NCBI GenBank assembly: GCA_021774695.1
Contig: JAJFIU010000068.1
Location: forward strand, 1 to 32,989
Direction: 5' to 3'
From: Alphaproteobacteria bacterium
GTDB lineage: Bacteria; Pseudomonadota; Alphaproteobacteria; Sphingomonadales; Kordiimonadaceae
DNA length: 32,989 bases
In this document: positions 12,291 to 20,229 of the stretch, in pieces
How positions within the stretch are numbered: the stretch's first letter is position 1
Layout of the letters: each line of letters opens with the position of its first letter
Position numbers and translations under genes: made by a program
The notes under the pieces: model-generated
What the model was told of the DNA's origin: nothing
What the model saw: only the letters and a program-made list of their open reading frames with translations
The model's database searches: none

Positions 12291-13223
12291 ATGATAAAAT
12301 CAAATAAAATGATCAGCCGTCGAACTTTTACAACCCTTTTTGCTGCGAGCTTACCATCCTTACTTTATTCTCCCCAGTCCTCTTGGGCACAGCAGGGTAT
12401 CTTGGCTAAACCGGTACCGTCGACGGGCGAACTGCTGCCAGTTGTTGGACTGGGAAGCTGGATTACATTCAATGTCGGGCGCGACCAGCAAGGGGTTGAA
12501 AACTGCGCAGAGGTGATCCGTGCTTTTGTTGCGGCGGGCGGCACACTGATTGACAGTTCGCCTATGTATGGTTCTTCGCAAGCAACTATCGGCTATGCTT
12601 TGAAATCCTTGAGATATCCGGGGAAGATTTTCGCCGTCGACAAGGTCTGGACAAATGGAAAGACGAATGGGCGGGACCAGATTAACAGTAACCTGTCACT
12701 GTGGGGAATTCCCAAGTTCTCCCTATTGCAAGTCCATAATCTGCGAGATTGGCAAAATCATTTACCTACTCTATTGGAGATGAAACGGTCCAACCAGTTG
12801 AACTATGTTGGCATAACAACATCGCATCAACGACGCCATAGCGATGTTGAAGCCATATTGAATTCACAGCCGATTGATTTTGTTCAACTGACATATAACG
12901 CGGGACAGCGGGCTGCCGAGCGCGGGCTTTTGCCTTTGGCGCGTGAACGGGGCATAGCCGTTATTTTAAACCGGCCATTTGGTGGTGGCCGCTTAATTAG
13001 AATGGCCAAACGACAGCCGTTCCCGGACTGGGCACGTTCAGAAGGTTTGCAGGGGTGGGCGGACTTTTTGTTAAAATCTGTGATCTCCCATCCCGCAGTT
13101 ACCTGCGCAATTCCGGCGACATCCCGCGTAGACCATGTGCGTGAAAATATGCAGGCATGCCGGGGAATGCTCCCCTCAGCCAGGTTGCGGCAGCGCATGC
13201 TCCGCCACATTGAGGCACTGTAA
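12291..13223 (+). CDS. Tat-exported aldo/keto reductase
   Basis: 310 residues. The N-terminus carries a twin-arginine signal: SRRTFTTLF near residues 9-17, a hydrophobic stretch, and a likely cleavage after SWA near residue 33. The mature part is an aldo/keto reductase. The catalytic Asp and Tyr sit in LIDSSPMYG, five residues apart as expected, the Lys in AVDKVW and the His in LLQVHN. Family members reduce carbonyls with NAD(P)H; a Tat substrate would be exported folded with cofactor bound, which is inference. GGGGG (12282-12286) is 4 bases before the ATG; an ATG at 12309 would still keep the SRR motif. The stop TAA overlaps the next ATG by one base. Confidence 0.85.
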   Translation: MIKSNKMISRRTFTTLFAASLPSLLYSPQSSWAQQGILAKPVPSTGELLPVVGLGSWITFNVGRDQQGVENCAEVIRAFVAAGGTLIDSSPMYGSSQATIGYALKSLRYPGKIFAVDKVWTNGKTNGRDQINSNLSLWGIPKFSLLQVHNLRDWQNHLPTLLEMKRSNQLNYVGITTSHQRRHSDVEAILNSQPIDFVQLTYNAGQRAAERGLLPLARERGIAVILNRPFGGGRLIRMAKRQPFPDWARSEGLQGWADFLLKSVISHPAVTCAIPATSRVDHVRENMQACRGMLPSARLRQRMLRHIEAL

Positions 13224-13885
13224 TGCCGGAGTGGATGAGCTATGAACTCGTCGATTTCCTGATGTTTTCGCCAGCCACCTATTATCGCATGATTGAGTTA
13301 TATCATGGCTCGCTTTGGCCCCTGCATTTATTAATTTTTGCTATAATTATCTTCCTGCTGGTTAAATGGCGTCAACCTCCCGGTAAGTCGGTAATTTTGT
13401 TATTTGCATGTGCTTGGCTGCCGGTAGGTGTCGCCTTTTTCTACTATCAGTTCGCGCCTATTTTCTGGGGGGCCTATTATATTGCGGCAGCGTTTGTCGT
13501 GCAGGCTTTGTTACTTGTCGCTACTATTTTTTTAAAATATGATTCTGTTGAAGGGCGCAAGCAAGTTTGGAAGTTACCGGTTTATTTTATGGCAGCGGTT
13601 GCTCTGGTCGCTCCTCCTTTGCTGACGATGGCTTCCGGTCGTCCGCTTGCCACCAGTGACCTGGTGTTTGCTACGCCTGACCCAACCGTGGTAGCTACAT
13701 TTTCACTGCTATGTACATTTCGATCGCCATGGTGGTTGTTTCCTATCCCAATTCTCTGGTCGGTGTTTTCCGGTCTGCTGTTGTATGCAATGGAAACACC
13801 TTGGTTTTGGCTGATGCCTGTAATTTCGGCGCTTGCCGTCGCAGGTCGGTTGATATCGTTTAAATTGGGGCGAGCTGCCGACTAA
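13223..13885 (+). CDS. Multi-pass membrane protein, DUF6064-like
   Basis: 220 residues, strongly hydrophobic, with about six or seven membrane segments (near 30-48, 56-74, 78-100, 115-135, 155-175 and 180-212). The opening MSYELVDFLMFSPATYYRMIELYHGSLWP matches what I remember of the DUF6064 family, whose function is unknown. It starts at ATG 13223 inside the aldo/keto reductase stop (TAATG), so the two are co-translated and may act together at the inner membrane. Codon use here seems somewhat more AT-rich than in the flanking housekeeping genes. Confidence 0.7.
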   Translation: MPEWMSYELVDFLMFSPATYYRMIELYHGSLWPLHLLIFAIIIFLLVKWRQPPGKSVILLFACAWLPVGVAFFYYQFAPIFWGAYYIAAAFVVQALLLVATIFLKYDSVEGRKQVWKLPVYFMAAVALVAPPLLTMASGRPLATSDLVFATPDPTVVATFSLLCTFRSPWWLFPIPILWSVFSGLLLYAMETPWFWLMPVISALAVAGRLISFKLGRAAD

Positions 13886-19632: not shown

Positions 19633-20229
19633 ATGCAGGAAGCGCCTTTCCAAACACCGTTTTCCCTCTCGCAGCAATGGTTAGCGGATGCCGAATCTTC
19701 AGAAGTCAACGACCCGACGGCAATGTCGCTGGCGACAGCAAACGTAGACGGCCTGCCGAGCTTGCGCATGGTTTTGCTGAAAGGCTGCGATGAGCGGGGC
19801 TTTGTTTTCTTTACAAAATTTGAAATCCGTAATGGTGCTGATATGCTGTAGAACCCAAACGCTGCCCTCTTGTTCCATTGGAAATCGCTGCGCAGGCAAC
19901 TGAGAGTTGAAGGCAGGGTGGAGGTTGTGACTGACGAAGATGCGGACGTGTATTTCGCTTCGCGGCCAAGGGCGGCCCGAATTGGGGCCTGGGCGTCAAA
20001 ACAATCACGCCCCATGGAGGGCAGGTTCGAATTTGAAGCAGAAATTGCCCGCTACACCGCGAAATTTGGTGCAGGGGATATTCCGCGCCCTGATTTTTGG
20101 TCTGGTTTCCGGCTTGTTCCAAAATATTTTGAATTTTGGCGAGACAGGAAGTTTCGCCTTCACGAGCGGAAAACATACAAGTTGAACGACCAAGGGCAGG
20201 GATGGGATATTGAAGAAATCTATCCCTGA
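19633..20229 (+). pseudogene. pdxH: Pyridoxamine/pyridoxine 5'-phosphate oxidase, interrupted by an in-frame TAG
   Basis: Codons 1-72 (19633-19848) and 74-198 (19852-20226) form one continuous PdxH frame, split only by TAG at 19849-19851. The intact enzyme uses FMN and oxygen to turn PNP or PMP into pyridoxal phosphate. Before the stop: [15 protein letters not shown] and [19 protein letters not shown]. After it: NPNAALLFHWKSLRRQLRVEG, YFASRPR, IGAWASKQSRPM, FEFW and RLHER. The ribosome site GAAAGGA is intact. Several normally conserved positions are changed: SRKG reads IRNG just before the stop, and the DSQ or GSQ of SQIGAW reads AAR. The fragment after the stop has no convincing restart. It may be a true pseudogene, a strain mutation or a base-call error. 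Confidence 0.9.

Follow-up and report, generated by a model that had tools for sequence, protein, structure and literature searches.

An in-frame amber codon within a small patch of substitutions in the otherwise conserved, single-copy pdxH gene of a Kordiimonadaceae draft genome

Pyridoxine/pyridoxamine 5'-phosphate oxidase (PdxH, family TIGR00558) is well described from Escherichia coli (PDB 1g76) and human (PNPO, PDB 1nrg). Human Lys117 is one of four basic residues at the FMN phosphate, according to one report (PMC4856418), and another gives Tyr129, Arg133, and Ser137 of the E. coli enzyme as contacts of the substrate (PLP) (PMC10969823). Deletion mutants of E. coli pdxH are vitamin B6 auxotrophs whose growth is reduced in all tested media despite the presence of PdxK and PdxY (PMC10202323). 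The gene described here resembles these enzymes in its family match and in its equivalents of Tyr129 and Arg133. It differs by a TAG at codon 73, by the loss of the equivalents of Ser87 and Lys89, and by an alanine at the equivalent of Ser137. A second group of related cases consists of bacterial pseudogenes and single stops in draft genomes, in which, as here, one nonsense codon interrupts a recognizable gene. An example is thiD of G009, another draft of the genus. However, the stop in the present gene lies inside a small bunch of changes, without gene-wide decay.

The window, meaning the whole stretch of 32,989 nucleotides that was analysed, is the entire contig 137 of a draft genome of 3.80 Mb, which is divided into 172 contigs and is 90.68% complete. 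The pdxH frame occupies positions 19633–20229 of the plus strand and consists of 198 codons and a TGA, with one in-frame stop, the TAG at codon 73 (19849–19851). An earlier, sequence-only reading of the window had described the frame as open over 198 codons save for this TAG and had rejected a frameshift. Translation agrees with this description, and the codons align one to one with those of relatives without any indel, which also rules out a pair of compensating frameshifts. In searches with TIGR00558 the piece before the stop scores 66.4 bits and the piece after it 158.1 bits, both in one frame. When the stop is read as X the score is 238.2 bits, over a cut-off of 180, and the match identifies PdxH over its whole length. 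The continuous open frame of a PdxH gene is broken here by the TAG at codon 73. The flanking genes encode a DnaJ-like protein and an aldehyde dehydrogenase, and this order is kept, with an intact orthologue of pdxH, in six genomes of the genus. Elsewhere in the window, an aldo/keto-reductase-like gene and a membrane protein gene (12291–13885) are present also in G015 and are unmatched in the stretches compared from the other five relatives.

We aligned the protein with two sets of sequences. The first consists of 29 relatives, fetched from among the 55 other genomes in which pdxH has a match. The second comprises 80 further loci, and at least three of these come from records of genomes already in the first set. 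The S-R-K motif shortly before the stop reads I-R-N at codons 65–67 (19825–19833, plus strand), as had been noticed earlier, and in the alignments the serine and lysine of this S-x-K element are invariant in 29/29 relatives and 80/80 further loci. Alignment to E. coli PdxH and human PNPO equates codon 67 with E. coli Lys89 and human Lys117, and codon 65 with E. coli Ser87. The position of the FMN-phosphate lysine is therefore occupied by Asn67 in the present gene. In addition, Asn62, which is found in all 29 relatives and in 79 of the 80 further loci, is replaced by lysine. When each of the 29 relatives is left out in turn, changes at otherwise invariant sites number zero to two per relative, versus three here (N62K, S65I, and K67N). 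Two of the relatives have two such unique changes each.

The A-R that precedes IGAW (codons 115–116, 19975–19980, plus strand) had been read as a damaged form of the S-Q of SQIGAW. The letters are correct; the view that they are unusual is not borne out by the alignments. Arginine at codon 116 is the usual residue, being present in 24 of the 29 relatives (counted by eye) and 70 of the 80 further loci, and Ala115 is common to the two nearest intact orthologues, G010 and G015, and to 3/80 further loci. Because these nearest intact relatives have Ala115, A-R is, as judged from the alignments, neither a defect nor a sign of decay. Among the equivalents of the E. coli substrate contacts, Tyr107 and Arg111 are kept and Ser137 is replaced by Ala115. 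The present gene and the two nearest orthologues have in common a change at a PLP-contact site (window 19975–19977; codon 115 of L003 and L004).

The unusual changes of the present gene are concentrated in a patch of codons 60–73 (19810–19851, plus strand), which contains the stop together with all three substitutions at positions where the 29 relatives do not vary (codons 62, 65, and 67). We polarised the differences against the pair G010/G015 plus four outgroups and obtained 34 derived differences on the present branch of pdxH. Eight of these are in the patch (7 transversions; 6 non-synonymous and 2 synonymous), versus 26 in the rest of the gene (10 transversions; 6 non-synonymous and 20 synonymous). 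Patch and rest differ in the share of transversions (Fisher 0.039) as well as in the ratio of non-synonymous to synonymous changes (6:2 versus 6:20, Fisher 0.013). Behind the stop there is one non-synonymous derived change versus thirteen synonymous ones. A scan of non-synonymous changes finds 6/12 of the derived changes within 14/198 codons (P ~0.006, for a width picked post hoc), and a bunching scan restricted to the first two positions of each codon gives no significance (P 0.42–0.44).

Identity to G010 is 49/59 before the patch, 6/14 inside it, and 116/125 after it. The corresponding values for four remoter genomes compared with G010 are 39–45/59, 10–11/14, and 97–106/125. Seven residues of the patch are unique to the present genome among seven genomes, versus zero to three in each of the other six, and codons 1–59 contain four unique residues here versus 2–13 in the relatives. 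Judged by these alignments, pdxH is ordinary outside the patch and odd within it. The comparison was extended to 28 genes of the window, 22 of them with at least two relatives. In pdxH five unique residues fall within 15 codons, which among the 22 genes is the densest such run of the present genome; the next has three. Other genomes, however, have runs over 15 codons that are as dense or denser: ten in a pitA-like gene of G006, six each in dxs and sdr2 of G014, and five in acad2 of G018.

Two other origins of the altered gene were considered and set aside. Gene conversion from a second copy was rejected, as a search of the genome that allowed up to three mismatches places positions 19810–19848 at a single locus. 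A split gene, whose C-terminal piece of 119 residues would restart at a TTG at 19870, was considered on account of the strong conservation behind the stop. This arrangement is less likely, as the piece would be without the first half of the FMN site and codons 1–59 are no more altered than those of relatives.

Codon models were fitted to the branch leading to the present gene. With the patch included and codon 73 excluded, branch omega is 0.124 versus 0.038, a difference that is non-significant (2dlnL 3.5), and fixing omega at 1 does not fit significantly worse than leaving it free (2dlnL 2.35). Without the patch there is no significant rise (0.106 versus 0.034, 2dlnL 2.1). The comparison genes give 0.060 versus 0.030 for aroC (2dlnL 2.6), 0.044 versus 0.036 for yihY, 0.048 versus 0.042 for dnaJ, and 0.095 versus 0.107 for a thioesterase gene. 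The fit with omega of 1 needs a branch length of 0.127, and the free-fit branch lengths of the thioesterase, aroC, yihY, and dnaJ genes are 0.57–2.51; because such branches are long, these models are low in power. The sequence-only reading had argued that several independent hits at near-invariant sites speak for relaxed selection. This argument is weakened. A-R is common to intact relatives, and N62K, S65I, and K67N are hardly independent of the stop because all of them lie within 12 codons of it. Behind the stop the gene is conserved (ratio 1:13), and omega is not significantly raised outside the patch, although power is low and an omega of 1 is not rejected when the patch is included.

We also examined the background of in-frame stops in these drafts. 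A stop was counted when the 30 residues on each side had an identity of at least 0.70 on both sides, with at least 20 residues on each side, a threshold that was set after the list had been viewed. In comparisons with four relatives the pdxH stop is the sole survivor in the window, where it is seen with 4/4 relatives, and no comparable in-frame stop is present in 40 kb of contig C88. The nearest other candidates have identities of 0.62/0.87, for a stop 21 residues into the match and upstream of the dxs start, and 0.57/0.77. It follows from the lack of comparable stops in the window and in the 40 kb of C88 that the assembly is not generally poor. A first-pass homology scan of C88 had given apparent inner stops in 32/56, 29/59, 33/54, and 10/21 matched ORFs with the four relatives, and these, mostly shadow frames or regions ahead of start codons, were discarded. 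In a greedy scan the stop-bearing matches are 7/32, 6/28, 7/25, and 4/13 for C88 and 4/17, 5/22, 9/21, and 6/18 for the window. A codon-usage scan for interrupted genes over 299,897 bases of sampled contigs and the window was powerless, the pdxH stop itself falling outside the best 25, and nothing was drawn from it. Single in-frame stops do occur in drafts of this genus, since thiD of G009 has an isolated TAG at residue 166 of 261 aligned. That codon is at bases 728–730 of L199 (G009:C15:1500-3200), on the minus strand, within a thiD at 443–1225, and has no obvious bunch of changes around it.

Interruption of pdxH is rare among the genomes searched. Counting the present genome throughout, 56 of 59 genomes have a pdxH match, and an inner stop is present in one of these 56. 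Across the order, pdxH is over the cut-off in 138/147 genomes (121/124 of those of good quality), and the present genome is the only one of the 138 with an inner stop. The interruption is more than the ordinary state of the family. A protein search for pdxH finds one place in each of the 17/17 genus genomes with a match, and the family search with TIGR00558 lists a second match for G018; the matches of that search beyond those listed are weak second ones. Three genomes of the order that are more than 90% complete (G022, G065, and G096) have no pdxH match; they are drafts of 370–430 contigs, and the absence may reflect a gap. Our literature search, by title, found no report of a pdxH lesion in Kordiimonas, which is not proof that none has been printed.

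The remaining vitamin B6 genes bear on whether such a loss could be tolerated. Both pdxJ and pdxA, for which the sequence-only reading had advised a search, are intact in the present genome. It had also supposed that the cell should own a second oxidase, take up vitamers, or suppress the amber codon. No second PdxH and no pdxS were found in the 90.68% complete assembly. Pfam PNPOx_N matches number four, comprising pdxH, two more proteins over the cut-off, and one below it. One of the two is an MSMEG_1061-type flavoprotein and the other weakly matches that family only; neither matches pdxH at E 0.01. Pfam Phos_pyr_kin matches only ThiD and a sugar kinase of the PfkB type. For pyridoxal kinase (TIGR00687), 0/19 genomes of the genus, including the present one, exceed the cut-off, and 17/19 have sub-threshold matches (in the present genome, the ThiD gene); this test is strict, as just 2/14 control genomes exceed the cut-off. 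Because pdxJ and pdxA are intact, pdxS was not found, and no pyridoxal kinase is over the cut-off, PdxH looks like the sole source of PLP in this bacterium.

Suppression of the amber codon was considered in the same way. There are 38 tRNA-like places, 36 of which are named by ARAGORN. A CUA anticodon is absent from these 36 tRNAs and from the two places read by eye, one of them a truncated tRNA-Glu copy and the other scoring below the threshold. No suppressor of the kind proposed earlier is thus among the 38, a set that is incomplete because no tRNA-Ile is among ARAGORN's 36. One below-threshold tRNA-like match (L161, G000:C127:20145-20207), uncalled by ARAGORN, has TAT in its anticodon loop by eye. 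TAG is the terminal stop of 6/30 genes of the window. The gene for RF1 is there in two fragments, both at contig ends and neither reaching the family cut-off. Given intact pdxJ and pdxA and the failure to find pdxS, a second PdxH, a CUA tRNA, or a kinase, the cell could hardly survive a fixed loss of pdxH without help from ThiD, from uptake of PLP, or from a gene that the assembly lacks.

At this locus we therefore have a stop, changes bunched around it, conservation behind it, and no substitute for the gene in the assembly. The reading that we favour, with a probability of about one half, is that the lesion is a local consensus or assembly error or a minority allele. The TAG would be part of one lesion of ~42 bases (codons 60–73) in an otherwise constrained single-copy gene, and the lesion would most likely be unlike the working gene of the population, arising either from an error where the sequence was poorly supported or as a minority allele. 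PdxH would still be needed, and living cells would carry an intact copy. Several points speak against an error. A short-read consensus error does not usually look like this, with eight substitutions and no indel within 42 bases. No comparable stop is present in the window or in the 40 kb of C88. The tests of the patch rest on few changes and a post hoc window, with a non-significant scan at positions 1 and 2. Finally, other genomes have equal or denser runs of unique residues, and two relatives have two changes at invariant sites. Some of the same observations suit a genuine, very recent knock-out, a serious contender to which we give somewhat less credence. Such a strain would live on outside vitamin B6, and perhaps ThiD or another enzyme phosphorylates pyridoxal; as a guess, a local burst of substitutions, such as one error-prone repair tract, could have placed the stop and the cofactor-site changes together. 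The co-occurrence of the stop with loss of the FMN-phosphate lysine and the invariant serine agrees with this, as do the neutral-like 6:2 ratio in the patch, the non-significantly raised branch omega with an omega of 1 unrejected, and the absence of other comparable stops from the window and the 40 kb of C88, which is contrary to general error. However, pdxJ and pdxA stay intact, no pyridoxal kinase is over the cut-off here or in 18 other genus genomes, and E. coli lacking pdxH is auxotrophic even with two kinases (PMC10202323). Conservation behind the stop is strong, with no significant relaxation outside the patch, and the short branch that an omega of 1 needs differs from those of the comparison genes.

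Two further explanations find less in their favour. An unrelated oxidase, or one that escaped the searches, may have taken over from PdxH, or a second pdxH may lie in the tenth of the genome that the assembly lacks; the old gene would then be starting to decay. The incompleteness of the assembly, its 172 contigs, and the two other PNPOx-fold proteins leave room for this, yet we consider it unlikely: those two proteins do not match pdxH, the 17 genus genomes have a single place each in the protein search (six in the same neighbourhood), and an old event should leave decay behind the stop, where none is seen. It is very doubtful that translation passes the TAG, by read-through or suppression, to give a full-length, altered PdxH. 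Behind the stop, 125 codons remain open and conserved, as this would require, but no CUA anticodon was found in the incomplete tRNA set, TAG serves to end window genes with an RF1 gene present in two pieces, and the product would still be without Lys67 and Ser65.

Whether assembly error or very recent knock-out, the lesion is probably ordinary, unless reads prove it fixed. We think it quite improbable that this is a bacterium of the DXP route that keeps PdxJ and PdxA, has no recognizable pyridoxal kinase, has just lost PdxH, and takes in PLP or turns PNP into PLP by a novel enzyme. If the lesion is an error or a minority allele, it illustrates that a nonsense codon in a single-copy draft gene needs to be read together with its neighbours, and changes bunched around a stop while the gene behind it stays conserved would be a useful diagnostic. 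If it is real and fixed, the bacterium would be cut off from its sole recognizable way of finishing the vitamin B6 cofactor, and would be a place to seek an unknown PNP oxidase or PLP uptake.
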